Both the position numbers and the translations under genes were made by a program. 64,000 nucleotides of DNA from Pocillopora verrucosa (Eukaryota; Cnidaria; Anthozoa; Scleractinia; Pocilloporidae): assembly GCF_036669915.1 (NCBI RefSeq), contig NC_089314.1:30471592-30535591 (forward strand), read 5' to 3'. Positions 15,179 to 59,822 of this stretch are shown here, piece by piece. How positions within the stretch are numbered: position 1 is the stretch's first letter; each line of letters begins with the position of its first letter. Below the pieces are notes generated by a model. It ran no database searches. It was not told where the DNA came from and saw only the letters and a program-made list of their open reading frames with translations.

Positions 15179-16330
15179 AATAATGCAGTGTGGTATAATT
15201 ATTTCGATTTCAAATAACAAAGAGATACGGCCATTTTGTTTATTTTCCATTCACCCTACTATCTGACTGACTCAGTCATATTTTGCTGTTTTCAAAGAAG
15301 GAAATGAAAGAAGAAGTACGAGAGAGAGAGAGAGGGAGAGAGAGATAATGCGAGAGAAGGCAGATGGAAAACGAGAAAAAAAAGTAATTGAGTAGAGTGA
15401 AAGATTAACAATATGCTTGCCATAACAAATTAATTTTAAAAAAAATTGGTCTGAGCTTTTTATGAAAAATACTTATAGCTGTAGTTGTGTCATTCACACA
15501 TAACTTGACTGAGATTAAAACAAAATATATAAAATTTAATGCAAGTATGGAAGTGTAAATGCACCAACTTTGAAAAAGAAATTTTTACCGTACAGGATCA
15601 TAAAGGTACATCGCTGGAGTACTAGAAGAGTCTTATCTCAGTATAAAAAATCCAACACTGTTTCACTTGAGTCTAATAAATAAGCCAGCCGTCTAGGGCT
15701 AATTTTTTTTAACTGTGTTACTGATGTAAGGTAATTTCCTAAGCTCAAACATGGTGACATAGATTTGGATCTAAGCATGTATCAACCTGATTTTCTCAGA
15801 GATTTTTGTAAAACGTATTACCACCACATAAAACATCTTACTTGAATTAAACATACTGTAAGATTTCCTGCCATGTTCTCTCTACGGTTGCATACAATTC
15901 GATAAGAAAGTGATCTCCACATAATACACAGCCCGCACGCAGGTCTTCGTTATGAGTGTTCGGCAAGAGCGTTTTTCGCCATCATGAAAGTATGATGCTT
16001 TGAGCAAAGCGAGTTTGCAAGGGAACCACAGCTATTACTGATGTGCTAGATCCCGACAAATCTCTCCCCAGACTTCACCACAAATTCGAAATTCCCGCGG
16101 GCGGAGAAACGCGCGGTCTGTAGTACTCGTAATAAGGGCTCGTTCGCAGGCTAGATAAGAAGTACAAATTTCACAACTTTACCTCGCGAAGGTCAATCAG
16201 AGAGATCTCATTTGCTCCATAAATATAAATACGTTTGTCTGGCATAGCTAGTCCTGTGGATGAGCTAAACCCAAACAGGCGTTATTAGTGCAAGAACAGT
16301 CCCATCATTCAATGGGAAGCGGTATTCAAA
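15179..16330. other. Intergenic and CIAO2B upstream region
   Basis: Contains a GA-rich microsatellite (about 15321-15347) and AT-rich DNA. The last few hundred bases before 16331 are the presumed CIAO2B promoter; I see no clear TATA box there. Confidence 0.5.
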
Positions 16331-38605: not shown

Positions 38606-41320
38606 CTTGCGGCAGTCAGATTGTCGTGTGACTATATTTGCAGTGTTTGTTTGAGTAAGGCTGTCGCTGATAAAATAATCAATAATAATATATTTTTTTT
38701 GCTGCGTAGCTGATAATTGTGTAGGTAGCGATCCGAGCTGATACGAGGTGAGAAGTGGATCGATGTTATATTCCTTTTTCGGCTTCCCAGCTGATGTTCG
38801 AGTTCCCTGTCTTACACATTTAAACGTCACTCATTCTTGAAGCATAAACCAAAAAACTAATTGTTATTTGATCAATTTTTTGTCTCTGTGCTGGACGAGG
38901 CTCCTCAATTACTGTATGCGGTTCCTTCAATCTTTTGTTCACAATCATCAAAAATGCTAATATGCGGGCCGCTTTCAGAAAAATAAAAAAGTTGCCTTAA
39001 GGACGAAGTGTTAAAACGCTGAGGCTGATGTTGATATTTTCTCTAAGTAACGTCATGTAATCTTTCTTTACGTCAGTAGAAAAACACTTTTGGATTTATT
39101 TCTGATTTGATAATATCACTCAATTTCCGCTTCTTTTTGAGAAGAGAGTAAGTTATAAAACATAATTTCAAGCCTTGATGAAAGGTGTTCCTTACGTGCG
39201 ACAAACAAAAGAATACATTATCAATATTTTTTATTGACATTTGAAATTTTTTTAATCTTAAGATAAATTCGTGTCAACAGCAGCTCAGAAAACTCAGTGA
39301 AATGTCCTTGGATATAATATTGAACATGAGGCCAAAACTAATTTGATGATGGCCATATTTCATGATTTTAATTATTTCTTTTAGATCAAACTAATGCTAA
39401 AATTAATTTCTTTCAGTTTGAAAAGACTGTAGTTTTTAGGTAAAACCGTAACGGCTCTATCTGATCTTTCGAATAAAGCAAATTAGTTTCATTTTATTTC
39501 ATTTACGTTAATAAACCTTGCCTGATTATGTTTCTACTTTCAAAACTGAGGCTCTCCACCGGAAAAAAAGACAAAACAACCTGAAGATTGGCATTTAATC
39601 TTCCTGAATGACTTTAAATCGATATCTTTATAAATATCTTTTGAGATAGAACTTCAATTCAAGTTACAATCATTACCATGGCACTAGCTCGATTTTATGA
39701 AGCTGTTTCGCGAGATTTCACCATACTCAGCAAGTAGGAGCTCGGAAATCAATTTAGTAAAACATAGAAATAATCGCATTTGTAACACTGACGGAGAAAT
39801 GTTATAAATACGAACGACTATCATGATAGCAAAAATTTAGAGTTATAATAACGTTGGTGTTTTTTAACAGTTTAGCCCTGTTGATCTTATATTTTATTTT
39901 TAAGGCCGATAAAGCAAATTTCTTTCTTTGAAGTTGTGATTTTGTCATTTAAAAGGTAATTTCTTGATCGGTGCAAATGTAACCCTGTACCGAATAATTC
40001 GAAAATAAACCAATAAATTGGGTCAAACATCCTCAAACGGTTCCTCTGTTCTAAAAAGTAATGAAATTGCCTCGGAAGTAGGCTTGCAGTGTTTTTGTGA
40101 GTTTGTTTGCACTGGAATCGTAAAATTGTTTTGCAAATTTCGCGAATGTCATTGTCTTACCTGTGGCGTCAAAATTTTGGATGCAAATAAATTTCCGTTT
40201 CACGAGGATATGTTCCTATGATATGAAGAACAAACGGAAGGGTGGGCAAACTTTTTTGTTTGCAACGTCAAATACGACGCCGAACAACACGGAACTGATT
40301 TATCATTCACAGAACCTCCCTATATTGCCTAGATTCATTCGTGGTTTTCGGACTTGAGCCAGAACTTTCTCCAGATTAGTGTGAAAAGACAGTCTTCGAT
40401 TCCAAATAGAAATTAGAAAAACCCGCTTTTTATCCACGATATTGTTTTGCACATGATGGCAAGGAAAGCTACTAGAACTCATTCGAACGTGCTAAGCGAT
40501 TCTTCACCTCAATAAGCTTTTTGTCTCACAAGGGTATCTTAATTAACAGTACATCAATCGATCTATTATTAAGTATACAGATATAGAGTAGTTTCCCTGA
40601 GTATTGAATTGCTGCGTAATTGAAACACGCGCAATTAAAATTTCCAACTGGTTTTCAATAGTATAACATCGACTCATCTTTTCTGATTTTCTATCCATTG
40701 AGCTTGTAGATCCAGTAGTCTAATTTTCAAGACCACTAAACCTACTGTACTCATTGATTTGGTTGGAAACTTGCCTGTGCAACTTGATTTATGTGCTGAT
40801 CACAGGAGTTCGAAGACTAGATAAACTTCGTAAGGATGGCTGTTACAAAAGAAACCTGCCTCTCTGAGGTCACATTTTGACAGCAATATCGCCATGGTAA
40901 CAAGGGGACATCAAGGCAGCATTTTCCAATTTTATCAAGGTTTATTTTCCTTTTTATACCAACATTATTGAAATTTGATTTGACCTTTTTCGAAAAAGGA
41001 AAAAAAGTATTGACAAAAATTTCGATATCGCCAGATTACGGTTTATTTCAAGTTGACCTGTAATTTCTTTACTGCACTCAGTGCTCTTAATTAGCGTTTA
41101 AAATAATTTTTTATTAAACATTTCATTAATACTTGATCATCATTTGTTTCATATCCACTCATGGATAGCAATTTTATCTCCTTCCTGGTGTTAACAATAT
41201 TTTTAGTTCTCTGAACTGTATCATTGCACGACCATGTAATAATATCATTTGATTGAAAATTTTTAACCGCAGTTTCTAGCTTCAAAATAAACGCCAACTT
41301 TCTTCAATGTCAGTGGTTTG
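38606..41320. other. Intergenic, no gene seen
   Basis: AT-rich, including the presumed GPCR promoter. Short open frames have no coding signals I can support. Confidence 0.4.
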
Positions 41321-42111
41321 TTATTGTTTCTCTGGGCATGTTAGTCCATTCGGAATCCTTTGCTTGTCTGCATTTGTTTCTACTTTTTCTTTTGCTTGCA
41401 TCTGCGTAGTCTGTTTGCTCATCATTCTGAGAACTGGTGCCAGCTTTAGTTTTCTCTTAAGCTGAAATCGATAAATTAGGACATATAGAGGCTAGCTAAT
41501 TTTTGGGGAAGGTGATGATGATGATGATGTTTATTTCTTATATTGCGCAGTCTAGCATGCGATAAAGCAAAATTACTGTTAAATTCAAATTTCAGTCAAC
41601 GACTGAGATAAGTAATCGTTGAATGTTGTCTTTCAATAGCATTTTAGATAATAAAACTGACAAAAGTTCAAATAAGGCCTTAAACTACTGTAAAAATCTT
41701 TTAAAAATCCAAACTTTCGCCGATCCACGGCATCCACAGGGACAAGAAAAAAAAAAAGGAAAAAAGAAAACTGAGATCAGCTTTAAAAGTCTGAAAAACA
41801 GAAGCTTCATGGCAAAATAGAATGTGATCAAAGAGTTTGAAACTTTACGACTAGTTTCTACAGAGTTCGACATTGTTTCATGTTTTGTTAATGATGAGCC
41901 ATTTAACTTCTCCGTTATATAAGACTTCAGCAGAACTCGCGCGTCGTCAAGCGTTCAAACTTCCTTGCATGTGAAATATGAAATAACAAATATTTACCTT
42001 GAACTTTCTTTTACCGACTCTATTATTGCTGGAAAATGCCTCATCGTCGGTGATCAAAGAAGAAAGGATGAAAAGGAAAAGTACGATGTAGATAAACCTT
42101 AAATTCGCCAT
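41321..42111 (-). CDS. Secreted neuropeptide-like precursor, copy 1 (second exon tentative)
   Basis: Exon 1 (42111-41998, 38 codons) encodes a signal peptide (MANLRFIYIVLFLFILSSLI, then TDDEA) directly followed by FSSNNRVGKR and KFK. A strong donor (AAG|GTAAAT) interrupts after the Lys codon in phase 0. Known processing rules predict cleavage after DEA and at the KR pair and use of Gly for C-terminal amidation, giving FSSNNRV-amide. The best acceptor downstream (TTTATCGATTTCAG) opens exon 2 at 41461-41321, 46 codons starting LKRKLK with a single Cys near the end; it lacks the C-x6-C of the paralogues, so this exon may be diverged or wrong. A TATA-like box lies about 100 bp upstream. Exon 1 clearly belongs to the same family as the genes at 45.7, 52.0 and 58.6 kb. 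Confidence 0.6.
41511..41531. repeat. (GAT)n microsatellite
   Basis: Six or so GAT repeats inside the intron of peptide gene copy 1. Confidence 0.9.
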
Positions 42112-42208
42112 AAGTTTTTTTTTTCTTTTTCATAAGATCGACCTTTGACTCAGCATGCGAGATTGTAACGACGGGACGGATACGAATGCATCACGTTCAG
42201 TTCATGTT

Positions 42209-42217
42209 GATATATAA
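42209..42217 (-). promoter_or_regulatory. TATA-like box of peptide gene copy 1
   Basis: Minus strand TTATATATC, about 100 bp upstream of the ATG at 42111, the same arrangement as at the paralogues. Confidence 0.55.
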
Positions 42218-43415
42218 GCCCTCTATTCAACGACTCTGCAAACTTTCCTTCACTGCTACCTTAAGCTTAGTTGTCACATTCGTCGCTCTCTGATTGGCCA
42301 AGACGACGTTTTATCGTGCCACCATATTGCCAGAACAAAGCTGTGAAAACACGTGTTCGTTTAACTTGTTTCTTCAGCTGCTCTCCCAAGTCACTTATGC
42401 CTTGGTAGGGTTTATAATTTCTCACGGAGGGTGTCAACGTTTTGCTTTCACAAGGGAATCGATGCATCGTGATCGTTAATATTTGTTTCTTTTATGACCA
42501 AACCTCTACTATCGCATGGTATTCTCAAAAGAGCGTTTACATTCCTGTAACGAACGGCAACAAATGTGTAAAAATGAATAAAAGAAAAAGGGAGCGTCTG
42601 CTGAAAAAAGGTTTAACTCCCACACAATGATTGATTCTATACACAACTGCTCTAATAGGTACGTTTATGTGATTGGCATGACTTCCTGTGGAAATGATTT
42701 ACTATTGGAGTTTGAACCTTATTTCACAATCGATGGCCAAAAGCGTTCTTAACTGAAAGACAAAGTAACATTCTCAATGTACAGCAGGTGATTTAAAGCT
42801 CGTGGTTTATCTTATCTTTTTGGAGGTAACATTTTGAACAAGAAGTAATAGAAATTACATCACTCAAGTCGTGTTAAAGCCCCTTTTATTAAAAAGCTCA
42901 CCTACGTGCTTTGTTAAAGTCACCTTTCATGTAAATTCTATCCTTGCTTCATGAATTAAAATAAAGCGAAATCATCGTGCTTTACAGATGATCGCCAACT
43001 ACAGATGATCGCCAACGACAAAGGAAGGGTTTTATATGAAAACTTTCTGTTTAAATCAGTTAGATAGGTAGTGAAAAAGTATCTTTTCTTGTTCACAGAC
43101 AATTGAAATAGTCTCAGTTGATTTTTTTCAAACGGCCCGAGACAGAAGAAAACGTTATCGCATGAAATTTAAAGTGTCTTCAGCTGACAGAAAGTCTGAG
43201 AAGTTTAAGTGGCATATCGTGTCAAAGTAGACAGGTACCGCCTTTTACGCCGGAGTAATTTTTCGAAAAACTTTACTACAGTAACTTGTTGTCCTTCGAG
43301 ATTTCGGAGGCTGCTTTTAATGAACAAATTTACGTTTCGACGCGAAAGCTTTGACGTGAGGCGGGCTATGCCATCTTATAATGGAAAAAGGTGCTACTTT
43401 TAGATTCAAGGAAAA
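42218..43415. other. Intergenic, no gene seen
   Basis: No coding sequence or repeat that I can support; a short duplicated ACAGATGATCGCCAAC lies at 42985-43017. Confidence 0.35.
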
Positions 43416-43646
43416 ATGAATGATCATAAGTATTTCCAAGTCATCTGCATAACATTAGCATCACTTTTATATGCAGAAAGTGTTAACGTGAATTCTGATC
43501 ATGATGCTGAACAAATCGTCAGAATCATAGCGTCTACATCTTTGCCATTACGGAAAAACTTCAGTCTTCCACATCGGACTCAATACAATTTACAGCTCTG
43601 TTTTAGTTTAACTTTTTCCAAACGAGTAACTTGCAAGTGGGCGTAA
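43416..43646 (+). CDS. Possible small secreted protein
   Basis: A 76-codon frame whose N-terminus looks like a signal peptide (YFQVICITLASLLYAES), followed by a polar region and two Cys spaced by ten residues near the C-terminus (LCFSLTFSKRVTCKWA). It lies between two peptide-precursor genes but on the other strand, with no intron, no GKR/GRR motif and no clear family resemblance. A chance open frame is quite possible. Confidence 0.3.
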   Translation: MNDHKYFQVICITLASLLYAESVNVNSDHDAEQIVRIIASTSLPLRKNFSLPHRTQYNLQLCFSLTFSKRVTCKWA

Positions 43647-44916
43647 GGCTTCCTTCCAAAGGAAAATATTTGTACAACTAAAAGATCGAGACATCTTCTC
43701 AAAACGATCCTTTCACTAATGTTTGAAATTTGATTCACAGCCATCCTACGCTGAGAAATAAAGGATATTCCCTTTCATTAAAAGAGGCACACACCATCGG
43801 TTTTGTAATCAACATTTAAAGATGTTCTACCCCGATTCTTGAGAGAACTTTTGAAATCACGAACTTTTTTGATGAGTCAGCTTGGATAATTTCAGATATA
43901 TCAGCAATTAATTTAAGATTCAGAGCCAGATCTAACTACAGGCGATAACGCGCTTTCAAGGAAGGAATGATTCGGCTTCACAATCTGACAACCACCTCAT
44001 GTCACCTAGCTTGGATGTCATTTAACATGGAGATTTTCTTAACAAAAGTACTTCTGTTATATTACTTGCAAACTTTAGGCACTCATTTGGTTTTGCAGCG
44101 CACAGGCAACTTTTACTTTGATTGGTGCTTTATCGTAAAATGAACGGGCCTTTTTACATAGCGTCCTTGGCCGAGCTATACTGATACTGATCTGAATTTC
44201 CTTTATTTTGTCTAAAATGACGTTCAATTTTTGAAATTAATATTGAAGAGACAAGAGAACATTTTCGCGTGTTACGAGGTTAATTTTGGATTGAAAGTAG
44301 CGAAGGGTTAGTAACTAAGCATGTGTTTTCAAGTGAGAACTTGGACCCCAGACGTGATGTACCCTAAACAGGAACATATTTTCGAAAGTTAAGCGTTTTC
44401 AGGTAAGTTCGTGATTTCAATCGTTTTACTTCGCTGTTTACTGCCTAAAAGAACTAAGCTCTATTTTCCGCGTGTTTCTTGTGATCTATAGATCATGGAT
44501 GACGTCCAAAATTGGTTTAAACACTCAGCAGAGCCCTTTTATCATACCATATGATCTGGAAGTCAGAATTTTCTAGATGCCTAGTTCAATTTATTTTGAG
44601 CGCGGAACCCAATTGTATCAGTCTGTAATATCTCACGTAACCAAAAAATTTCAACCTTTTTGCTGGGAATTTTTCTCGTATAATTTTTATTTATGAAGTA
44701 AGCTGTTGCTCTGTAAAACAACTCAGTAAGTAGTACAAATAGCTGTAAAATATTCTGCGAACAAAATCCTCTTGAATCATTTATTCTTCTGCGACTTGTG
44801 TCATAATCTTTCCGTTACGTCCGTGTGTCTTTTTTTCACGAAATTCAAGCTTTACGTAAAGAAAGTCAGCTTCGAAAACTTTGACATGAGATCAATCACG
44901 TGATTTTCTAAGATAG
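43647..44916. other. Intergenic, no gene seen
   Basis: AT-rich DNA between the small secreted ORF and exon 2 of peptide gene copy 2. Confidence 0.4.
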
Positions 44917-45694
44917 TCAAGGCGAAACTTCATTTCTTGTTAACTGTCTCTCCTCTGTATGGTCGTGGTGCATTTCCATATCACGTGACCTCAACTGCTG
45001 AGAGTCGATTCCGCCACAGTGTTCTCGTGCGAGTCGACAGACATCATGGAAAGTTCTTTGAAGCTTTGAATAACAGAAGAACATCAACAATTAATGATGA
45101 AAAATCTTTATGGAAAAAGATAGATGATTACTTTTGCAATAATTCATTAATGCCAAATTGAAACTGTTATTTCTAGAAATAAAAAAAAGATCAAGTTGCA
45201 TAAGTGGTTACCAGACCATATATCTTTTGGAACTTGGATTTTTTCCCGATTTTCAAAACAATCGTCATTACCTCAGAATCGAAATATTATAATCCTTATC
45301 GAGTAGGTAGCTATCAGTAGTGGGAAAATTTGAATTTTCCCACTACTTTGAAAAAGCCTCGTTAGAATTATAGTTTGCGACTGAAGATGCAAGAAATTAC
45401 CTAAAGTTTAACAACAAAAAATTTTGAGTATTACAAAAAAAAAAAAAAAAAAAAGTTTAGTTCAACGTCTTACTTTTGATGTACACTCATTTATGCCGGT
45501 AGAAAAAAACTTAAAAAATCAGATCCTTCGATGGAGTATTTTCCAAGAGCAAACTGATATACATATTCAATATTTACCTTTAAGTATGTAGCTCTTTTAC
45601 CAACTTTGTTGATGAAAAATGCCTCAGAGAAAACGAGAACGGAAGATATGAGAACACAACAAAGCAATGCAGATGTGAGTCTTCCAGACGGCAT
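44917..45694 (-). CDS. Secreted neuropeptide-like precursor, copy 2
   Basis: Two exons: 45694-45578 (39 codons) and 45063-44917 (48 codons plus TGA), joined in phase 0 through a donor AAG|GTAAAT and an acceptor ending CAAAG. The 87-residue product has a signal peptide (MPSGRLTSALLCCVLISSVL, VFSEA), then FFINKVGKR, predicted to yield FFINKV-amide after cleavage, then ATYLK at the intron. Exon 2 carries HDVCRLAREHCGG, two Cys with six residues between them, followed by a hydrophilic tail. It aligns well with the 58.6-kb copy (DICRLAYEQCG), including the distance from the exon start to the first Cys (nine codons in each). A TATA-like box is about 90 bp upstream. Known amidated-peptide processing supports a secreted signalling peptide; receptor and expression are unknown. 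Confidence 0.75.
45316..45347. repeat. Near-perfect 15-bp-arm palindrome
   Basis: AGTAGTGGGAAAATT and its exact reverse complement are separated by two bases, inside the intron of peptide gene copy 2. Confidence 0.85.
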
Positions 45695-45779
45695 GGTGCT
45701 GCTAGATATTCTCTACTTGTTACAAGCGAAGTTGCATGTGAAAGAGAAATTAGAGACACACGAACCATCTCCGTCGGCC

Positions 45780-45789
45780 TTATATATCC
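45780..45789 (-). promoter_or_regulatory. TATA-like box of peptide gene copy 2
   Basis: Minus strand GATATATAAGG, about 90 bp upstream of the ATG at 45694. Confidence 0.6.
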
Positions 45790-46227
45790 AAGAACTGTAA
45801 AGCAATCAAGACAATTTATTTATGTCCTATGCGAAATTGTTCCGGATCCATAAAGATTGAGCAGACATCTGGTCATGAAAGTGACAAAGAAACATAAAAG
45901 AACAAACACAACGAATTATTTTCTTTGACTACTTTTTGAACTGCTTAGCTGAATGGTAATCACTCATGATCGTTATAAGTAACTGGCCATACTCTGTATT
46001 GACTTTTAAAAGAATTTGACACTTTTAACGAGGCTGAGCGTAGGTTTATTTTGCGATGAGAAATCATTTATAATTCATACAAAGTTCGCTGATGAACGCG
46101 TTGAGCACCGGCATCGACGATATTCTGATATAAGAGGACAGGAATCACTTGTTGATGCAACGCCCTTAGAATTGTTCGATAGTCAAGCGGTTTTTGAGTT
46201 TTTTAAAAAATCTTTTCATCTTTTTTG

Positions 46228-46377
46228 TCAGTTTGCATGAGTAACTATTTCCTTGACAAGAGGAAAATTTCTTTTTTTATTTTCTTTGTGCTCTTGAATG
46301 AATGAAAACGACATCATGGGTAAATTGAATAAAAAAGGAAGAAGAACTAAAAACCATTTTATTCTACCAAGCGGCAT
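46228..46377 (-). pseudogene. Possible relic of a peptide-precursor first exon
   Basis: The frame from ATG 46377 starts MPLGRI (compare MPSGRL in copy 2), continues as a signal-like hydrophobic stretch, then SFSFIQEHKENKKR, with a dibasic site but no Gly donor. At 46251 the sequence reads GTCAAG|GAAATAG where intact copies have AAG|GTAAAT, as if the donor GT had become GA. A TATA-like TATTTAAA lies about 110 bp upstream. I did not find a second exon. Tentative. Confidence 0.3.
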
Positions 46378-47371
46378 TGCGATGGATAGCAGATGAGTTT
46401 GGCAAGAGTTACATAAGTAGAAAAACATGTCTTTGCGTGGGTTTTTTCTTAAATTGCTATTGTTTCTCAAGATCTTTGCGCGCTGGTTTAAATAGGCTTG
46501 AATAATTGAATATTGCGCGGGTCGGTGTGTGCAATCTACGTCGAATTAATTTCCGCTGCTCACCATGGGAGACTTCTGAAATAGAAATTAGTACAAGGTA
46601 GTAATTGAATTGGGTATTTAAAAGGCTTTCTTTGCCTTTGTGTTCACCTCGTTCTTTTTGGAACATCTGATAATTAAAACATCCGCCGATCAGAAAGAAA
46701 AAAAGAAGAAGAGAAACAACGAACCATCACAAAAGAACGAATTCTGATTTTTCTCTGGTATTTTCACTTTAATTTTTTGATTACCAGCGATAGATTCAAG
46801 ATCGTTACTTTCAACTGGCAACTACGAGCATAAAGAGTTTTTCTCTGACTGTCGCGCGAATGGCTAAAAAGAGCCATTTTGTATCTTACGCTACAAGTTT
46901 TGAAAATTAAAGTTTATTCATATCCATTTTTTCGAAGGCTGTCAATAGCGGGGATATTTTCTAATACAAATAAACATCCACTCACAAAAAAAGGAAAAAA
47001 GTAACTGAATTTTTTCTTTGCATAACAGTCTTCACAGATCTTCCACATGCCATGCTCTTTAATATTGATTGTGATTACAATCTTTTTCACCTTTTCAATT
47101 CTCTTTTGGATGATTAGAGTCTATTATAAAAGAAGAAAGCTGGATATTCTTTTAAGTATTCTGTAAGAAGCAGAGAGGGAATCGGCGAAAAAGTGCTAAT
47201 TCCTCCTTAGTCAAAAACGCGTGGTGATGAGTATCTGTTACTAGAGAACATACAAAACAAGAAGAACGAAATCCGTGGATAGCAATTGATTTTGTTCTTG
47301 AGTGTTTTGAATGACCTTACAATAATCCTTTGAGTAACCTTTTCTAGGCGTTCAGTCGGTGAATATATATA
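46378..47371. other. Intergenic, no gene seen
   Basis: Contains the TATTTAAA-type box near 46485-46496; otherwise AT-rich with no supported gene. Confidence 0.35.
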
Positions 47372-48735
47372 TGTTATTTGCCGGCTGGGAGGTCCGTATG
47401 GTGAAAAACTGTGACCGAGGTCTTGAAAATACTGCCCGAGGCCGTAGGCCGAGGGCAGCATTTTCAAGACCGAGGTCACAGTTTTTCACCATACGGACCG
47501 ACCCTTAGCCGGTAAATAACATATTTATTGTTTTTAAACTTGACGAAATTCTTTCCGAAAGAACCCGAATGATTTATGGCCGTAAATACGGCAAGATCTT
47601 CCATAAGCTGAAAAATTTTTGAGTGAGTAAATAGTAGTTAAAATAGAGGTGATGCAAATTTAAGAGAGATGCCTCAGCGAAACATTTTCATTTCCGTAAC
47701 GATAAAGGTGATTTAAAAGGCTTCCAAACAAACTTTGAAATATTATTTTTACAAGTATCTGTCACAATCTGACACCTGTCAATTAGAGAGCGCGCAAGAA
47801 AAAAAAAAGCGTAGGAACATTTGAAAACCAACAGAACTAGTTTGGCAAGGACTGTCACGACAATGTTTTCCTCAAAATCAGTTAATGATCTAACGGAAAG
47901 TATTATTCACTCTCATCGACCATTTGTTCATGTACGAAGATTTACCTCTGTTCATTATGTAAACGGCGAGGAAAGTAATTGTGAGTAAATTCAATTTTTT
48001 TATTTTGAAGTTGTGAGAGTTTGCTCGTTTGTTTGCTGTAATGGCGTGTTTAACTCTGATCTTTCCTTCACAAAAACTAAATTCGAACGGCACACTCCGA
48101 CGAGACCCAAGGGAATATATTGCGGCCTTTTATAAAAAAATTCCTTCAATTTCTGTTGTGCAATTTAAGGTACAAATGTCCAAATTGAACGGAATTGGAA
48201 AGACTCACCAGGAGCGTATATTTGTTGTAGAACTTAAATTAAAACTTCGCTCGCTCTTTCACTATGAACAAATTGCTCGAGAAAATTCAGATATTAAATG
48301 AATGAAAGTTCCATCTTTCAGTTTAACTGTAACCAAATACCTCACGTTTCAACTTTCTGGGTATTTTTTGTGAACGATTAAAATTAATTGCAGACGGTTT
48401 TTAGGCCGCTTGTCAACCAACGTAATGACACTATCGTTTATACAAATTCATTCTGAAAGCAATATTTTTCTGTCAACCAAAGTGATTTGATAGAGAGAAA
48501 AGAGAGGATTCATAAGTTATTTATCGGCTTGAGGTAGTGACCGACGTGTTTGCTTAAAAATACTGCCCAGCCGGAAAACGAAGTATATTTATGAAAAATG
48601 ACAACGAAAGTTGGGATGTACTCGGCGACTCACGAAAGCGTTACCGTGGCCCGTGGGCAGAGATAGGAAAATACTGACCGGGTAAAGAACCAATCAGATT
48701 GCAAGATTCGTTACCGTGCCCTCTAAAAAAACAAT
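47372..48735. repeat. Large repeat, copy A (inverted relative to 62.2-63.55 kb)
   Basis: Begins with a ~150-bp hairpin (47372-47522) whose arms contain GTCCGTATGGTGAAAAACTG and its complement, and continues to about 48735. The whole unit is found again in reverse complement at 62205-63553, recognisable by ATGCAAATTTAAGAGAGATG, CAGACGGTTTTTAGGCCGC, AACCAATCAGATTGCAAGA and others. A frame at 47890-48093 (minus) is matched by one in the other copy, but I see no known domain. Confidence 0.85.
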
Positions 48736-51700
48736 AAATTGAGATCTTAGCTCAACACAAGAAAACAAAAACAACAACAACAAAAATAAAGAAAAAAATA
48801 AAAAGGAGAAGAAGTAAAAAAAGAGAGGTCGAATCTGGGCCTTCTCCTGCATTCTTATTGAGTTGTCACTTCGCCTCTCTTACTTCTTAAACATACTGTT
48901 TTCTGAAAACCAATTTTGTACCGAACGTAAAGAGGTAGTACCTTAGTTAGAACTGATGTTTTCTGCGAGTTCCAACGTTCTTTATAATGTACGTGGCTGT
49001 GATAAATTACTCCGTAGTTAATGAGAAATTCTCATTACATATACTATATCAATGATTTAACGAGGCAAACGATGTATGATATCACCCCAAGGTGAAAAAG
49101 AAGTAGCTGTAAAAGAAGCTTTTCAAAAACGTGCATGATTAGAATTTGATCGGCTGGACTTATGAATAAAGATCGAGTCTGTTGACATATAAAAGTACAG
49201 GAAGTTTACGAAAAGTATGAAATCCGGGAGAACAAAAATTAATCAAGAGCTTGCATGGGGTCTTCGAAGGAAAAATCTGACCCATGGCCCACAGTCAAAT
49301 AATGACTTGCACCTTCTTTATAATGAGGCTTCTTCACACTCATTTTTTACTGTCGCTACACGGACTGCTCAAAAGCTACCTGTTTATGTATACAGAAGCC
49401 ACCTTTGTAAGTACATGTGTACAGAAAAGAGGCCTCACCTCAGCTGCGTTTACGAGTGCTCTTCGACCTAAGATGTTGTTCTTTTCGGTAGCCAGTTTAT
49501 GTTATCAACTCAGTTGATAATACTAAATTACTCTGTTATACACGGGTTACGTTCAGGTTATTACGAACAGCCACCAATCGCAAACTGACACAGACTTAAT
49601 TAAACATAAACAACATTTACGATAACTTTAAGTCGGTAAATTGAGTACCACTGTGACGGTAAAAATACAGTAAGTTACGAAGCTAAATTTCACATCCCGG
49701 CAGCTTTAAAGAAAAGTTTGTTTTCACCATAAAAAGCTTTCATGAGGACAGTGTTGTCTTTTAGGATTTTGATACCCCACCACTAAAGCGTATGCCCAAC
49801 ATCATGCACGCCAACCAGGCTCAGTATTTTTCAGTATTTACGAACATCTCTCAAGCATCATTTCATACTCCTGAATGAAGAGGGTCCTGGATCCTCCTGA
49901 ATGAAAAAAATGAAACTCCTGAATGAAACGATCTCATCCACCAACAATGATACATTTGAATATTTACCAGCAGGCGCATTCTTGCCAATTTCGAGCGCCA
50001 TTTACGTTTTTCAGGAACTTGTCAGTCATGATCAGTAAAATCAATCCATTGAAATGGTTAATGGGAAAAAGAATAGCCATCTTCAAAGTTTATCTTTATT
50101 ATAGCAAAAGCTGGAAGTTGAGACTGTTGGTGACAGAATGTTATATCCTTTGAAAATTTTCTTCTCGACTTTATGAGGTAAAATTCGTGGAATGTGACAA
50201 TTTACTAATTAGCATCTCCTGGGGTGAAAAGTGAGGTACTTTAAAAAGTTCCGTCCGTGCTTTATATTACTTATTGTGCCGCCAAAGAACTTCTCAGATA
50301 AAGCGACCAGCCTCTTGTTTGAAAAGAGGAGGGCTGAGAATAACTTCAAAACCCACAATTAACCTTCGAAAGATATTATGAGTTTGACAATTAAAAATTT
50401 GGCCACTTAAGTTTAATGTTGAGTGGCCGTCTCAAGGAAAAAGCACTCCGGATCGTTTACAGAATTAAGAAACTTAGAAGATAAAAATGGAATGATAGTT
50501 TTTTTTTTTAAGAAGTCAGTTTGAACCTGTCAAAATTTTTACAGAGAGAGCGAAATATAGAGCTGTTGAACTTGTGAGTTAATCGGCTGGATTATCAGAA
50601 AGGATAGAAATTTTTCTCTTTTGATCTTAGACCATCTTGTTTTCTTCTGTTTTAGTCAAGCTCAAAGAGAAAGAAAATAAACAAAGTCAGGCTGTTTTTC
50701 TTTGTTTCTTTTCAGCTGTCTATAATAACCCTTCGAACCACCATAATAAAAGTAACTACAAATAAACCGCTCTGAGGTAATTTTCAGAAAAAAAAGTAAA
50801 TTGAAAATTATTTTCATGATCTTTTAAACAGCTTTTCTTAAAAGTTCAAGAGCGGTCTTGTAAGTGCTTCTCCACAGAGTTTTTTGCTTTGCTTTTGCCG
50901 GCGAATTTTTAATTGCATGACGAAATAATTCAAAGGAACCGAGCATTTTAAAGAAATGGCGAGTTATTGTCCAGATTGAGAGCTGAGAGGATCATTTGAA
51001 CCTACTCTTACTTCCATCATCTCCAGAGTTACTTAATTACTTTCACATAATAGTTTCGTCGATTGTTAACAATAAACACCACATCTCTGGCCAAGATGCG
51101 GTTTCCTTTATTCGATTAGACGAGTTTCATCGTTCAATTTTGAGTTCTCAAATGTCACTTCTTTACCATGATATTGAAGAATTTGTTTATCTTCCGCTCG
51201 AGATCCGTTTAGGAAATTTTTTTCTTATGAAATTACTTCTGCCCTCCTAATCATTTGACACGTTTATTGTCATTTCAAATCATACACGCAGTAACGACAT
51301 CTAAGTTCTAAAACATCGGCTTCGTTGATATATGGTCAAAGTGGTGGACCTTATTGTTTGCGATCGCAATATCTCATGCTTAATTTTTCTATCGCAATGA
51401 ACAGATAGGACTGAATGGAAAAACTTACAGACCGACGAATCGCATTGAATACTAAAGGGTCTTAAAAAATCGTTCGATTATCTCATTTTTAATGTAGCGA
51501 CATCGTTCTAACTTGAAAGATCGCGTCAATACTGTTAACCTGAAAAGATGTTTAGCTCTGCGCAAGAACATTTATATTACCCACGGTTCGCCATTTTCAC
51601 CTGCGTAGGAAAATAAACTGTCTGAAGAACTTAGTGCGTACGAGGATTAACCCATACAAAGTACCCACACTTTCAACATCATATGGTAGGTGTCTTCATA

Positions 51701-51917
51701 ATCAAAGTGGGTGTAGGCGTCCCATTAATCAGCCGCTTTACACAATAACACCTCAAATTGAATCACCATTTGTTAAGACGGCCTCATCCAACACATCTGT
51801 GTAAACTCGGCGCAATTATAGATTCGTAATGTGGCTTCCAAAATTTAGTCTAAGTAATTATCAACAACGAAACCCACTCCATTACACATAACGACATAAA
51901 TTTTCAAAGGCAAAACT
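48736..51917. other. Intergenic, with a MITE remnant
   Basis: An end fragment of the foldback MITE lies at about 49490-49550 (TATCAACTCAGTTGATAATA, then TTACTCTGTTATAC). Near 49870-49926 CTCCTGAATGAA occurs three times. No gene is supported. Confidence 0.45.
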
Positions 51918-51926
51918 TATATAAAT
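51918..51926 (+). promoter_or_regulatory. TATA-like box of peptide gene copy 3
   Basis: TATATAAAT, about 105 bp upstream of the ATG at 52028. Confidence 0.6.
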
Positions 51927-52027
51927 ACTGAGAAAGGCTTAAGCAGTTGTACGGAAATAAAGATAAGCCTGGAAGAGGTGGCGAAGCAGTAGAAAAATTT
52001 AAAAACACGCGATAGAAACTGTAAAGA

Positions 52028-53390
52028 ATGAGTTATAAAATCATTGGTTTGGTCTATGTTTTGTTGTGTTCCTTGTGCCTCTCCGAGGCTTTTGTAGGAA
52101 ACCAGGTTGGAAGAAGACTGCTCAAGGTAACAAGTTTTACATTTGTGCACATGATGTATAACTAAGTCAATATAATTTTCTACTATCTTATTCATCATCT
52201 GTCATGTATCTTATTTTTCTTTGCTCAATCCATGTCCTCCATCTAAAAGTGATACTCCTATCTTGAAAAAGATCAAGATAGCCAGTCGGATTTCGTTGAG
52301 AAGCTAGTAAATTTCAGCATACGAATTTTTGATTAAAACAAAATTAGCACGTAAAAAAAAAACTGATTCTCAAGGAGAATCCACCTTTGCAAGGAGATCA
52401 CACTTCTTACTTGTCATTGTGATTGTTACGAAAGTAATATGTCAATGTGATTGACAGGCTTAAGAGTAAGATCAAAAGCCGAGATGGAAATTGTTCCGGC
52501 CAAAACAATGAATAAAAACAGCTAAGTGCTCGCTTTAGCATCGTGATCGGATGAACACATCTGTGGCGAGTTGGACACTTGAAAGTAAGCTGAGTCTAAA
52601 ATCACAATTAAAAAAAAAAGAACTGACCCTTCTTCTGGCCGTTAAAGATAAAACTCGATAAATTGTCAACTTGCACGGGAGAGTTACAACATGTATTTGC
52701 AAGTCCCACTAAGTTTATTCCACCCAGGTGTTGCCACCAACCAATTTGTAATTTTAAATTTGAGAAGCAAACAAAATTTGAGATAGCCGCGATGGTTATT
52801 CCGATACTATGATGTACTGCACTGACTTGAATTTTAAGTACCAAAGATGTGCCACGGCACTTATTTTTTCTGCGAATACATTTTTTATATTTCGATCATC
52901 AATAAGGAGAAGGATTTCAAATAAAAACTGAACTGGACTGGAAAGTTTACTAGATGAAAACTGTGTCCCTATTAAGGAAAGAAGACATGAAGGTTCGTGC
53001 TTTTGCACTTGGGTGACCGACTTGAAATTTTTTTAATGATGAGAAATTTTCCACATCTGCATATATCCTCTTAAACGGGAGCGGTAATTTCCGGAACAGA
53101 AATCGGGCAGAAAGTAGAGCACGGAATTCCGGTTGAGATTTATCATATAAACGGATGTCTACTAAACTCGTTCGGCCGACGGTTATTTTAAGGGTATTTT
53201 AAAATCAGTGATAGAATAAATTATTATCATTTAGTTGAGCTCATCGTCTTTGAATTCATTGCAGGAGGAACTTCAGTCCAAAAGGGATTTTCATAACCTG
53301 TGCCATTCTGTGATCGAGTTATGTCCAGAAAGAGGAGATCGACATTCAACCAAAAGAAGTCTTCCAAGGAAATTAGGAGAAAATTATTGA
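52028..53390 (+). CDS. Secreted neuropeptide-like precursor, copy 3
   Basis: Exon 1 (52028-52126, 33 codons) and exon 2 (53265-53390, 41 codons plus TGA) are joined in phase 0; donor AAG|GTAACA, acceptor TTCATTGCAG. The 74-residue product begins with a signal peptide (MSYKIIGLVYVLLCSLCLSE) and then AFVGNQVGRR, predicted to release FVGNQV-amide after signal cleavage and processing at the RR. After LLK at the intron, exon 2 gives EELQSKRDFHNLCHSVIELC, so two Cys with six residues between, then PERGD and a basic tail with KR and PRK sites. The layout is the same as copies 2 and 4, though exon 2 is more diverged. The Cys pair could form a disulphide in the C-terminal spacer. A secreted signalling peptide is the best reading. 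Confidence 0.75.
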
Positions 53391-54109
53391 AATGTACTTC
53401 GTATAAATCATATCTTGAATGTATTTAATGATGGTCATTAAACGAAATTTATTTTTCGCTATAGTTAATAATTCGGTCAAAAGATTAACAGATAAATCTC
53501 GTAACGATGTAGTATCAGGAGGTACTTCACTAAAGTTCCTTTCTAGTCAAAACGACCTAATGAGAGATGAGTTTTATTTGTCCTTTTAACTTAAAATAAT
53601 AAACATATTTTCAAAGACCCAGTTTTAACTCGATGTTGATTATTCCATTAACTCAGAGAAAACAAAACAAGCCTTGCTCTCGTGAAAACCATAACAAAAA
53701 CCGAGGCGCACAATGCATGCTGGCCAATACTGGGTCTTGAAGGTCAAATGTTTACCATGTATTCATCTGGTGAACCTCCATGTTGTGTGGTTGGATCGTT
53801 TGAAGAAGCGCCCGGCTGCCTGGATCGAGGGTTCTAGCCACAGTCCCCAAACTGGTTCAACACTCAGGGTCTTAAAATAAATTAAAAGAATGGTTGTATT
53901 TCAATGAAAACTGTAGGAAGTCAGTCACTCTGGCCTTCTCGTTTAACAAAGATGTACCGTAATCTCTACACCTTGGCTATTAATGGCAGAGTAAGTAACT
54001 CTTCCAAAAACGCAAAGTACAAAAACAAAAAGCAAAATAATGGGAGGTCTCGAAGACCATCTGCCAAACGCCAGAGAACTACCAGAACAGAAGCATGCGG
54101 AATATTCTC
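53391..54109. other. 3' flank of peptide gene copy 3
   Basis: An AATAAA lies near 53599. Otherwise nothing recognisable before the LINE remnant. Confidence 0.4.
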
Positions 54110-54363
54110 TGCATGTTTCAATTTTGGCCTGCCATTATCTCCGACGATGAGCTGCACCGAAGAATGGGTATACAACCCGTCACGAAGCAGGTTTAGAGAA
54201 GAAAAAAAGTTGGATCGTCCCAGAATAGCCATCCGATGGATTTGCGAAGGTGGATGAAAGAGGGGCCGCCTAAGGAAACCTGGAGGAGAACCATAGAAAG
54301 AGAAATGAGAGACAGAGGATGGACATGGGGCAACCTGACCACTTATATTCAGAAATGCACGTA
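54110..54363 (+). mobile_element. LINE 3'-end remnant, frameshifted
   Basis: Reading frames switch but are recognisable as the C-terminal end of an endonuclease-RT LINE: DDELHRRMGIQPVTKQV (about 54143-54193, ending in TAG), then PPKETWRRTIEREMRDRG and WTWGNLTTY (to 54363). This is the same protein end as in the LINE at 27-29.9 kb (there RGRPKTTWRRTVEKRLRG) but a different, older copy. Confidence 0.7.
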
Positions 54364-54416
54364 GTAACGAAATTATAGATTTGATGAAATTTCGTCAAAC
54401 CGAGTGAATGTTCATG

Positions 54417-54650
54417 GATTTTACGATTTTGGTGAATATTTGTCAAATTCGATTTGGCGGACTTAACGATTTAGTCAAATTCATGAAAGTCAAATAAGGT
54501 TGATGGATTTGACGATTTTGGCGACCTTCAGTCAAATTTGTCAAAGCGAAATCAGGTCGGCGGATTTGACGATTTCGACGAATTTTAGCCAAATTCGTCG
54601 AGGCGAAATCAACTTGGGGGAGTTGACGATTTTGCCGAAAGGCAACTGGT
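54417..54650. repeat. Minisatellite, ~57-bp unit, about 4 copies
   Basis: Degenerate units containing GGATTTGACGATTTTGGCGA, GTCAAATTTGTCAAAGCGAA and ATCAGGTCGGC. Confidence 0.85.
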
Positions 54651-55020
54651 AGAAATGGTAGGCGTTGTTTGGTCAAGGCCCTCCGTGCATAGAAGCACGA
54701 AGAGGACTGACTTAATCTTTTCTCCCATTGTTAAAACATTCTGGTCTAGATGTCAGTTCTCCTTTTCTTTTATTATTATCAATTCTTTGCATGAATTCGT
54801 GCCCATAATATTACTCGCTGGCTCTAACAGGGGCAGCCGTTATCTGAAAAAAACAACTTTCATCAGCATATCTCAACTAAACCTTCTGCTGCTAAGCAAA
54901 TGTCAACCAGGATCAAGCTATCATACATTCTCTTGATTACCAAGAGTGCCCTCGTGATAAAAAAAATGTCCTCAGTGTCGCTCAGTAATTCTGCCCAGTA
55001 CGTGATAAATTAATTAATTT
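54651..55020. other. Intergenic, no gene seen
   Basis: No supported feature. Confidence 0.35.
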
Positions 55021-55500
55021 TTGATCTCCATGGAGTTAACTGTTAGCAGTAAACGGCTAAAAAATTTAGCCGTTGGATATAAAAATTGGCAAATTTTAAC
55101 CGTGAGTCGTAAAAAAAGTTAACCGTAAAGGATATTTGTGTTGACAGTAATGGAACTATATCAACCGACAAAGGGGGTAAGTTTCTAAAGAAACTGTGCT
55201 GCTACATTGGTGGGAGAGTATAACACGGTAATTTGTTATTGTCAACCGAGTTGATAACGTAAATTGACCTTCGTCAGAGTTTCAAAGCTGACGTTTCGAG
55301 CGTTAGCCCTTCATCACAGCGAATGACGAAGGAGTGACGTTCAGAACGTCAGCTTTTAAACTCTTAACGGTGGCCAATTTACTTTATCAACTTAGTTGAT
55401 AATACTAAATTACCCTGTTATATTAATCGATAGCTGTAAATTGGCCAAAATGCTAACCTTTGACCGTAAAAGCCATCACCCCTTTGAGACTCTCTAATTA
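55021..55500. repeat. TTAGCCGTAA-type repeat split by a foldback MITE
   Basis: Words such as AACCGTGAGTCGTAAA and AACCGTAAAGG lie at 55021-55150, and the presumed rest (GACCGTAAAAGCCATCACCC, TTTGAGACTCTCT) at 55445-55495. A foldback MITE at about 55175-55430 (TCAACCGAGTTGATAACG to TATCAACTTAGTTGATAATA) sits between them, consistent with nested insertion. A fuller copy of the outer repeat is at 56455-56670. Confidence 0.6.
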
Positions 55501-55633
55501 ATGTAAGATTAATTAGCGATGTGAGAACAAAATGTTTTGCGCCTCTTCCACGCTAAACTTCGTAAAAACCCTCGAGAAGAAGAATTGCTTTGCTTCATTC
55601 CTTAACGCATATCTGTCAATATGTGTGCCAACT

Positions 55634-56126
55634 ATGAGTATGACGCTTAGGACCTACTGTATTATTATATTTCTCATTCAGCTTCAACCCGCATCATTCA
55701 CGTTCAGTATGTAAGAGGCATTATGTTCACAGTGACAACGATTTGGTTAGGTTTTCATCTTTTTTATGCTATAATTTGATAATTATAATTTGTGTAGTTT
55801 ACAAACTCCTTTTTCTTCAGCCAAGTTATTGTAGAGAACATTTATAGAAATAGATGATGTAAATAAAAATAAAAATAACTCAAATAGATTGTGAGTTTAT
55901 TGGCAGCTGTGAATAATGTAAGTTATTTTGCGGTGTTTACAATTTAGGATTATCACTCTTGCACCGAAGTCTCAAACTTTTCTATTTTTTCCTTCAGCAT
56001 AATAGAAATATTACAGACATCTGATATTTCGCCCACGAGCACTGTGGTATTTCAAGCCCTCAACAGCAGGCGCGTGACACAGAGGCTGAAGGTGCAAAAC
56101 CGTGTGTGAAAGAACAGAGACGTTGA
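55634..56126 (+). pseudogene. Dead copy of the peptide precursor (copy 5)
   Basis: The second exon is clear. After a good acceptor (TTTTTTCCTTCAG, ending 55997) the sequence reads HNRNITDI, then a TGA (56022-56024) at the exact position of the first Cys, then YFAHEHCG and SPQQQARD, to a TGA at 56126. This aligns along its length with copy 4 (HERNLQDIC-RLAYEQCG-PEQQSRD). The tail is frameshifted relative to copy 4 and ends at a stop made by that shift. The candidate first exon (55634-55706, MSMTLRTYCIIIFLIQLQ, then a GTATGTAAG donor) has a signal-like stretch but no F-x-x-N-x-V-G-R-R motif, and its donor phase does not match. I read it as a pseudogene. Confidence 0.65.
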
Positions 56127-56454
56127 ATTTCCTTGTCAAGGATACAATATTAAACATTCTGAATCACCACACACGGAGATTGTTTCTGTTTTGAAATGTA
56201 TTTACACTTTTGTCCAAAGGAGATTAATTGAATTGAATTAAAAAAGAACAAAAGCATGTCACGCATGAATTTGTAAGCGGAAGACAAGTTAGACAGGTTT
56301 GTATCACCATGAACCCTCCTTTGATCATTTAAAAGTCGTTTTTGTTGGTATTTTGCTGGAATGCGAACACAAAGGTTGAGCATTGACAAGACTGACTGTC
56401 TTGTTTCTTGACACTTACCTCAAACAGTGTTTATCCTCTCACAGAGCATGGCTC

Positions 56455-56670
56455 AAATGAGAGTCTCAGTGAGGTTAACCCTTTAGCCGTAATTGCGTCA
56501 AACGCCAAAAAGGAAAAACAATAATAACGGTTAGTCGTGAAAGACTTTAAACTTAAAACTCTTTCTTTTAAGCGTAACGGAAAGAAATGAACCGTTAGCC
56601 GTAACATTACTCAAAAATTTAACCGTCAGCCGTAAAAGCCATCATCCCATTGAGACCCTCTTAAAAGGGT
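56455..56670. repeat. TTAGCCGTAA-type repeat, second copy
   Basis: Contains CCTTTAGCCGTAATTGCGTC, AACCGTTAGCCGTAAC, AACCGTCAGCCGTAAAAGCC and the end ATTGAGACCCTCTT. It matches the split copy at 55.0-55.5 kb. Confidence 0.65.
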
Positions 56671-58468
56671 ACAAGATATTGTAACGGAAAATTTACAAAA
56701 CACTAAATAGTCAAAGGCAATGCGATTTGGCCAGCATCTTGCTCAGAAAAAGAAGAAGTGATATTCCTGTTCCTTCACTGATGCAACAGAAATCGGAGTA
56801 ACTTCAATGAAGTTTTCAAAATGACTGCGTTCCATACGTACGTTCGCACTGCTAGCACTCTTCTGCGCAAGTTCATGTTAAAACGGAAGAGATAAAGGTC
56901 ATCAGGTCATCCAATTCCCTGCGGGTATAAACTTGGAGGATGTCTGCAGATTAACCCTACTATCTAATGCTTGGTCTGAGTTATTTCTTGAAAATATTCA
57001 TAGGTTATAATTTTATTAGAATCGTACCTCGAAGGGCAGAAAATGGACCAGTCGTTTCTGTCCAATGCCTTGCTTTCTGTCCGGGATGAAGTAACAAGTA
57101 TGTCACTCAAATCATTATGAAGATTTAACCAAAGTGTGCCAAAAAAAATTCTCACCTGTAGTCTTTTTGTTTTTTAAAACTTGTAAGAGAAACATTAATT
57201 AATAAGTGATTGATTACTTAATAAATCGAGAACTAACACATTCGCACCCACATAAAATCTTTCGACATGTCGTTGGAAATAAGTTATTATTACTTAGTGA
57301 CAGCATATGTAAATCTGACAAGCCTACATCTGGGGGATTTTGGAATTAAGAAAGCTAGCCACTCTATTTACAGAACTTTATAGGTAAAGGTAGGGGGCGC
57401 GGAAACAAAATGTAAAAGGACATGAGGAGACATGAGGGAGCGCAATAGTTTTTAATGCCAAGTAATAAGGAAAATTAGCACTTTGTTATGTTCTAAGAAG
57501 CCTTACAAAAGATTAAGAAGTCTAAGAATTCACTAGTACTAACATCTATAAATTCGCAATAGTACACGAAAAACTAATTTCGTCCATCTGACTGTTGCCG
57601 TAATCATACTTACGAAGTCATTAACATAAATTCAAGAAGACAATGCCCATTGATCGTGTGTCCAATATTGGACCCGCCTTGCAAACAGATGTTAATTATT
57701 AACAAAACAACGCCATTACTTTAACTAAAACTCAATGAAGCTAAACAAGGGAATTTTTCTCTTTTTTACATCTCAACTCCACATGCATGAATTACTTTAC
57801 AATTCTGCTTGAGTTTTACCATCAGCAGTTTAGTGTCTCTTTTGTTTCGTGATATTTTTTGTAAGTTTACTACTCTCTATTCAATACATGATGCACTGCT
57901 CATTTCCAAGGTACTTTAGTCGAGAAGGAAGCCATTAGTCGTCACGGAAAGGGGATTTTCTAGTGATGAAATTAACATTTCGACATTTGATGGACATAGG
58001 GCAGTAATGTGATAATGGTCTGCAAAGGAAATAAACCTTTGCCGCCAAAGGGAAGCTAGAATATTATCAACCACACTGATCGCATTATCGTAATCGAATA
58101 TTAAAATCCTTAATCTTTTGTAACTAACATTGCACAGCAACAAGAAGTTTAGGTTTTTAAGGAAGACTTTTGAAAATATTTAAGTTTAGCAGTTTTGTTT
58201 GTTCGACATCATAACACTAAACACTCTGAAGAATCGTAAACTACACCAATGAAAACTGAACTGACAAGGAAATTGATTAACATGCAATAGAACGTTTTCA
58301 CATTAAACGGCAGATGTATTTACAATTCTTTGTTTCTTTTCAACACCTTCATTCAAATAATGCGTTTAAGGAAGGAAGTTTTAGGGAGTAATGTACCGCC
58401 TCTGCCATTAGGGCATTAACAGAGCAGGATATGAATAATTTTTTTTGTGATATCCCAAGGATGGAGGT
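56671..58468. other. Intergenic, no gene seen
   Basis: AT-rich. Short open frames without coding signals. Confidence 0.4.
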
Positions 58469-58477
58469 CATATAAAC
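58469..58477 (+). promoter_or_regulatory. TATA-like box of peptide gene copy 4
   Basis: CATATAAAC, about 87 bp upstream of the ATG at 58561. Confidence 0.5.
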
Positions 58478-58560
58478 GGAGCACACGGTTTCCAATTCAC
58501 TGAAATCATAGCTGAGAATTAAGAGTTGTTATAGCAGTGGACGTTCGAAGAAGCTTTAAC

Positions 58561-59822
58561 ATGAAAACTTCAACCATGACTTCGACTCTTTGTTTCTTTT
58601 TTATTTTGTCTTCATTTCTCCAGTTCTCGGACGCATTTGTCTCTAACCAAGTTGGTAGAAGATCTTCTAAGGTAGGTATTGAATACTTTTTATTTCATCT
58701 CTGAGAAATTGTTTTGTCAATGGCAACGTTTAGTACCGGTAAAATGGACTTTAGTGAGTTATGTCTTAAATTTGGGGGCATCACTTTTACTTCAGAGCAA
58801 TGAGATTTACTTTATAAACAATATTTTCCTCCTTATTACAAACTTTTCTTTGACTACTGGTTCACTGGTGCACAGGCCATCACTTCCGTCAGTGATCTAC
58901 GGTGAATATATCAGTACGGTTCAAATAACTTACCGTAGTTATTCGGTTATAAGGCGCACCGTTTTTTTCAAGAAATTCCTAATTTCTACTAAAAATTACC
59001 GCCAAAGTTTGGGTGCGTCTTATAGGCGAATATTTTCCGAAACAATTTTTTTTATCACAGTTACTGGTACGATTTCAAGCAAATAAAAGGACACACAGTG
59101 TTGAGCATTGACTTTTATAAATATGGCGGTTCTGAAAAGACAAGTGAATTCAAATTTGCATAGATATGTTACGTGCTCGAGAGCGCGTGCTTAGTAATTT
59201 GATACGTCACAAAACGAAACGAAAATAAACAAGCGAAGAGATAAATACCTTCTTCATCCATTCAGCCTTTTTTGTGCACTGCGACCTGCATTCTTGGCGG
59301 TACGTTAATTCTTGTTTAATCAAGGCTTTTGTTTGTGCGCGTGGTCGCGTGTGCGACAATTCTGCTTTTGTTAATTAACGGTAAACTAAAATCAATAGGC
59401 GACTTTTTCGCTTTTTTGTAAGTTTATGAAAGAATTTACAATAAACTTGACCGATCTTTACTCCCCGAACAACGGTGCGCCTTATAACCAAGTATTTCAG
59501 CGATTTTCTCAGTTTGAAAACATGCAATAATGAAGTTGCCGAATTGGGGGTGCGTCTTATAGCCGAGTGCGCCTTATAACCGAATAACTACGGTAATTCT
59601 ACGTATTCTAGTTCTAGGTATTCCAAGTAATACTTAGACTTCGTAAAGCACTCCCTAAATAAAACCCTATTTTCTTTATTCTTAAAGCATGAAAGAAATC
59701 TTCAAGATATTTGCCGGTTAGCCTACGAACAATGTGGTGCCCTGGGACCTGAGCAGCAATCACGTGACTCAATGGCTGAAGACGCTAGGCTCAAGAGAAG
59801 AGACATTGAGTTTTTTTATTGA
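58561..59822 (+). CDS. Secreted neuropeptide-like precursor, copy 4
   Basis: Exon 1 (58561-58671, 37 codons) and exon 2 (59688-59822, 44 codons plus TGA) join in phase 0; donor AAG|GTAGGT, acceptor TTTATTCTTAAAG. The 81-residue product has a signal peptide (STLCFFFILSSFLQFSD) then AFVSNQVGRR, predicted to give FVSNQV-amide, then SSK at the intron. Exon 2 is HERNLQDICRLAYEQCGALG and an acidic/basic tail with KRR; the two Cys are six residues apart as in copies 2 and 3. A second in-frame ATG (codon 6) would also leave a signal peptide. The intron carries a 665-bp TIR transposon. The peptide part is one residue different from copy 3 (FVGNQV), while the exon 2 part is closest to copies 2 and 5. 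Confidence 0.77.
58931..59595. mobile_element. TIR transposon (MITE) in intron of peptide gene copy 4
   Basis: Perfect 29-bp terminal inverted repeats at 58931-58959 and 59567-59595 (starting TACCGTAGTTATTCGG). The element is flanked by, or ends in, TA on both sides, as with Tc1/mariner-type TA target duplications. Words like GCGTCTTATA recur inside. No transposase coding. Perfect TIRs suggest recent mobility. Confidence 0.9.

Follow-up and report, generated by a model that had tools for sequence, protein, structure and literature searches.

The stretch of DNA analysed here, hereafter the window, comprises 64,000 nucleotides of the stony coral Pocillopora verrucosa and corresponds to C3:30471592-30535591 in a 353 Mb genome. 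It contains four two-exon genes, designated A (42111-41321, minus strand), B (45694-44917, minus), C (52028-53390, plus) and D (58561-59822, plus), whose predicted products have the layout of precursors of short amidated peptides. An earlier annotation made from the DNA letters (the sequence-only reading) had proposed that four genes here share a signal peptide, the motif F-x-x-N-x(1-2)-V-G-[K/R]-R and a phase-0 intron after a Lys codon. All four were recovered at the start codons it gave, and a six-frame scan of the window with the pattern F..N.{1,2}VG[KR]R returned exactly four places, all in genes A-D. The same pattern was found in none of 60 dinucleotide shuffles of the window, a post hoc comparison in which the motif had been derived from these very genes.

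The four genes follow one plan. Each begins with a hydrophobic N-terminal stretch of 21-25 residues that ends in E-A or D-A and is followed directly by the peptide motif; the phase-0 intron then falls after a Lys (AAG) codon, with AAG|GTA donors and AG acceptors in 4 of 4 genes, and the joined precursors are all open, with 84, 87, 74 and 81 residues for A, B, C and D, respectively. Exon 1 of gene A (41998-42111, minus) encodes the signal peptide and FSSNNRV-GKR and is identical in the database protein P0004. Its predicted exon 2 (41321-41461, minus), which has one Cys and lacks C-x6-C, is the least certain exon of the set and is without an annotated spliced relative. For gene B, exon 1 (45578-45694, minus; signal peptide and FFINKV-GKR) was placed by sequence reading together with P0005, and exon 2 (44917-45063, minus; tail with VCRLAREHC) by sequence reading together with P0006. 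Gene C has exon 1 at 52028-52126 (plus; signal peptide and FVGNQV-GRR; sequence reading and P0007) and exon 2 at 53265-53390 (plus; tail with LCHSVIELC; sequence reading). Exon 1 of gene D (58561-58671, plus; signal peptide and FVSNQV-GRR) is matched by P0001 and P0003, and its exon 2 (59688-59822, plus; tail with ICRLAYEQC, ending in KRR-DIEFFY) is joined in the same way in the annotated protein P0001 of Pocillopora meandrina. The claim that three genes and a dead copy carry a two-Cys exon 2 was borne out: C-x6-C is present in B, C and D, and the dead exon 2, placed by sequence reading at 55989-56102 (plus), has a stop codon at the place of the first Cys. No partner exon 1 for this dead exon was found within the window.

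Upstream of the four start codons, a TATA[A/T]A box lies at -105, -92, -110 and -90; such a box occurs between -125 and -70 of 4.6% of 20,000 random positions, a background rate against which the four genes, being kin, do not count as independent. Two of the introns hold features of their own. The intron of gene D contains an element resembling a miniature inverted-repeat transposable element (58930-59596) with 30 bp perfect inverted ends, and the intron of gene B contains a self-complementary stretch of 32 bases (45316-45347, 94%).

Relatives in other corals were sought with the joined precursors, as the sequence-only reading had suggested. In a search of 5.8 billion proteins, 8 of the 217 best candidates passed E 10. 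Two of these were annotated proteins, namely P0001 of Pocillopora meandrina (E 6.8e-28), which has 4 differences from gene D over 81 residues, and P0002 of Oculina patagonica (E 3.9e-16), which has FFGNKV-GKR and CLFALENC; the 6 others were unspliced pieces corresponding to genes A-D. A further search gave 7 matches among 57 candidates, of which a new one, P0009, has an exon 1 with FFANHV-GKR. P0001 and P0002 follow the same plan as the joined exons here, and in both the exon junction falls at the same Lys, which brings two annotations into agreement with our predicted splice. Among the columns kept across both proteins are the end of the signal, F..N.VG.R, the Lys at the junction, R.LQD.C..A.E.CG and Q.SRD. 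Between gene D and the Oculina protein, identity was 12/25 in the signal, 5/9 in the peptide with its GKR, 1/5 in the spacer, 9/15 in the Cys block and 7/28 in the tail. In Pfam, no match was found at E 10 for the four window precursors, nor at E 1 for the tail of gene D. A structure model of P0001, with P0002 as its alignment, had a mean predicted local distance difference test score (pLDDT) of 61.9 and a predicted template modelling score (pTM) of 0.28. At the end of the tail, gene D and P0002 (EKR-NMEYLRQ) both have a basic pair and then a short piece, which could be a second product.

The genes extend beyond the window. In the 30 kb read rightward of its end, together with a genome search, three additional intact-looking genes were found, all on the minus strand: gene G (exon 1 at C3:30537736-30537623, YTSGNQV-GKR), gene E (C3:30549300-30549190, FFSNKV-GKR) and gene F (C3:30556005-30555895, FFSTKV-GKR). 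Their intron lies at the same place as in the window genes, their TATA box is at -90 and their tail contains ICQFASEYC. At least seven genes and one dead exon therefore lie inside C3:30512912-30556005 (approximately 43 kb). Two family members, the Oculina protein and gene E, served as genome queries, and only the best candidates were scored, so that the counts are minima: with the Oculina protein 9 of 9 matches fell in the cluster, and with gene E 10 of 11. The eleventh, on C9 (E 0.22), was rejected as a gene, since it lacks an in-frame Met and reads GFR where the family has G-[K/R]-R; it is taken as a chance match, although it may be a decayed relic. More copies elsewhere in the genome are possible, including relatives close to A or C. 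With seven genes in one cluster and annotated relatives in two named corals, the proposal of a lineage-expanded family of amidated-peptide genes was upheld.

How the copies have diverged was assessed at two levels. Compared with the database proteins (D/P0001, C/P0007, B/P0005 and B/P0006; A/P0004 and D/P0003, with zero differences, and P0008, a piece of exon 2 of gene A, were left out), 11 amino-acid changes were counted over 201 sites, none of them among the 43 sites of the peptide-GKR or C-x6-C segments (P 0.07, a trend only). In the young duplicates E and G, we observed the opposite distribution. Their signal sequences are equal at 75 of 75 nucleotides, their introns differ by 7 changes in 318 and their remaining coding sequence by 3 in 222, while the peptide codons carry 4 changes in 18 aligned nucleotides, all nonsynonymous, plus one inserted codon. 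Between E and F, the peptide differs by one nonsynonymous change. This pattern suggests that a new copy may gain a new ligand, which is afterwards retained.

Given this gene anatomy, we consider it probable that the cluster represents a family expanding by local duplication, in which every precursor holds a single copy of an amidated signalling peptide and each gene has a peptide of its own, and that the products are neural or neurosecretory ligands of G-protein-coupled receptors. The analysis establishes the anatomy of the genes, their relatives, their clustering and the focal divergence of one pair; processing, secretion, receptor and neuronal origin are what we infer from the genes. A prohormone convertase would cleave after G-K/R-R, a carboxypeptidase would take off the basic residues and the Gly would be converted to an amide, yielding one peptide per gene: FSSNNRV-, FFINKV-, FVGNQV-, FVSNQV-, YTSGNQV-, FFSNKV- or FFSTKV-amide. 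Each released peptide would most likely signal through a G-protein-coupled receptor, in a neural or neurosecretory role. The tail, with its one predicted disulphide, would be a conserved propeptide, perhaps with a role in folding or sorting. Local duplication would make the copies, and the peptide would alter afterwards.

Several observations weigh against this signalling-peptide reading. The peptides are known here from genes and annotated proteins alone, and the signal peptides were called by hydrophobicity and the -3/-1 rule alone, with gene A having an Asp at -3. The fixed family motif that the sequence-only reading had proposed stands for G-[K/R]-R (7/7 genes) and largely for C-x6-C (6/7 genes, the best exon 2 of gene A having a single Cys), but it is looser than F-x-x-N, since gene G has Tyr for the first Phe and gene F has Thr for Asn. 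The excess of peptide changes between E and G (Fisher p of about 7e-4) is a post hoc figure for a single pair picked after inspection; in the 1.5 kb upstream flank 61 of 1,275 aligned bases differ, and against this flank the excess has a p of 0.01. A short gene conversion could also account for the E/G pattern.

Other features of the window lie outside the family. A rhodopsin-type G-protein-coupled receptor in a single open frame (37619-38830, minus; PF00001, E 1.4e-34) lies approximately 2.5 kb from gene A. As a candidate receptor for the peptides it was rejected: muscarinic, serotonin, dopamine and adenosine receptors rank highest among its PDB matches, so that no ligand was inferred. A broken element resembling a long interspersed nuclear element occupies 28562-29573 (plus) and holds fragments of reverse transcriptase in two of its frames (RVT_1, E 4.5e-19, 28562-29086); the open reading frame ahead of it (27404-28561) has no Pfam match. 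A 768-residue open reading frame at 22676-24982 (minus) encodes ankyrin and armadillo repeats, and those at 313-2478 (minus), 9282-10574 (plus) and 13977-15179 (plus), of 721, 430 and 400 residues, respectively, have no Pfam match at E 0.001.

Tandem clusters with nonsynonymous change focused on the peptide are a pattern of venom and recognition genes. The cluster and the young pair E/G would fit a family of secreted defence, venom or recognition peptides in place of neuropeptides, but the four database-protein comparisons, one of them with a named species, show variation in signal and tail and none in the peptide, a short amidated peptide right behind the signal is a neuropeptide layout, and no Pfam family matches; we regard such a family as very unlikely. 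A narrower form of the signalling-peptide reading is suggested by sea anemones, whose phenyllactyl-peptide precursors were overlooked by the sequence-only reading. In these precursors a single amidated peptide follows the signal at once, and its first residue, a Phe, is turned into phenyllactyl (PMC7523074, Koch and Grimmelikhuijzen 2020); some of the peptides end in RV- or RI-amide (PMC7523074, PMC11087051). The coral family could then be the stony-coral counterpart of Antho-RNamide, -RIamide and -KAamide, with which it shares a single copy of a short amidated peptide, a hexacorallian origin and, at the predicted cleavage site, an N-terminal Phe in 6/7 genes. Against this counterpart, the coral peptides have 6-7 residues rather than 4 and other cores, with no RN-, RI/RV- or KA-amide tetrapeptide, and that of gene G begins with Tyr; the authors report that they found no phenyllactyl peptides in Scleractinia (PMC7523074). 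As to the tails of the anemone precursors, a search with probe rows yielded a single candidate, which was the Oculina protein. This narrower identity is conceivable but less likely than not. A relative may be among the 15 precursors newly reported from Nematostella (PMC11087051).

Common descent with the SIFamide precursors of bilaterians, with a layout older than the split between cnidarians and bilaterians, is compatible with the signalling-peptide reading and is the wider alternative. The sequence-only reading had likened the genes to SIFamide precursors, and in layout the likeness stands: both printed precursors, from a barnacle (PMC10532818) and from Macrobrachium (PMC4449106), have the peptide after the signal, GKR and a C-x6-C tail with the same Cys spacing. 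At the level of the tail sequence it is suggestive for Macrobrachium and weak or absent for the barnacle. Against a profile built from the tails of genes B, C, D and E and of the Oculina protein (our own scores from HMMER without filters, PDB searches at the settings of the search tool), the Macrobrachium tail scored 12.9 bits, a value reached by 1 in 10,000 shuffles that kept the Cys, and no sequence of 177,635 in the PDB reached E 10 with this profile. When the shuffles kept the hydrophobic pattern too, however, 48 in 10,000 scored as high, and with a profile of four tails (without gene E) Macrobrachium, at 11.5 bits, fell below the best of the 177,635 PDB sequences (12.2 bits). The barnacle tail was not significant, at 3.4 bits with 535 (Cys kept) and 2,757 (hydrophobic pattern kept as well) of 10,000 shuffles as high. 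By an ungapped score, none of 20,000 shuffles equalled Macrobrachium and the barnacle gave a nominal p of 0.026; of the 42 C-x6-C frames that occur in the window by chance, 0 scored as high as Macrobrachium and 4 as high as the barnacle. The comparison covered only two SIFamide tails, of which that of Macrobrachium had been found through a search with SIFamide tail words. In PMC11087051, the bilaterian SIFamide receptor is grouped, unstably, with an orphan cnidarian branch, which would favour common descent, while the coral peptides have no clear core in common with PPFNGSIF-amide. The tail likeness is suggestive, short of proof of common descent, and we judge such descent unlikely. The fuller proposal, in which corals retained a SIFamide-type precursor with a tail from before the split and Pocillopora used it as a scaffold for paralogue-specific ligands by peptide-only change, seems less likely again.

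Few cnidarian neuropeptide precursors are known to have a bilaterian match. If true, a SIFamide-like coral tail would offer a handle for comparison independent of the fast-changing mature peptide, and the family would provide the orphan cnidarian receptors close to the SIFamide receptor with a candidate ligand. In the cluster, young duplicates may have changed markedly in nothing but the ligand, and the seven predicted amidated peptides are concrete synthesis targets for effects on coral muscle, settlement and feeding. No description of these coral peptides was found in the literature searched (including NKV-, NQV-, NRV- and NHV-amide, which returned only a Hydra paper), with subscription papers and supplements outside the scope.

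Among known systems, the comparison with luqin/RYamide precursors made in the sequence-only reading did not hold. Both kinds have their amidated peptide close to the signal and a C-terminal domain with two Cys, but luqin precursors usually have these Cys ten residues apart, as against six here, and luqin peptides end in RF-, RY- or RW-amide (PMC7041311); membership was rejected on the Cys spacing. Its remark on Hydra Hym-176 found some support in the PKVamide genes, which include pQSPSNKVamide (where pQ is pyroglutamate; PMC8638164). The KV-amide end of the Hydra family is found in coral peptides B, E and F, with QV in C, D and G and RV in A; the Hydra peptides are longer or start with pQ, and their authors report them absent from other cnidarians (PMC8638164). 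Antho-RWamide (LRWamide) is likewise encoded in a single copy right after the signal and has been reported from stony corals including Pocillopora damicornis (PMC7523074), but its peptides start with pQ and end in RW-amide. Receptors for FLRNamide and LRWamide peptides were described by Thiel et al. 2024 (PMC11087051). With SIFamide the difference lies in the peptide, which in the printed precursors has 12 residues and ends in PFNGSIF-amide (TFNGSIF in the barnacle), as against the 6-7 residues of the coral FxxNxV-amides; the FNGSIF-amide core is absent from all seven coral peptides. The likeness lies in the remainder of the precursor: a single amidated peptide immediately behind the signal, followed by a dibasic site (GKR or GRR in 7/7 coral genes), a C-x6-C tail with the pattern hydrophobic-C-x-x-A-x-[E/T]-x-C (C-x6-C itself in 6/7 coral genes), and a total length of 74 and 76 residues for the printed SIFamide precursors and 74-87 for the coral ones.

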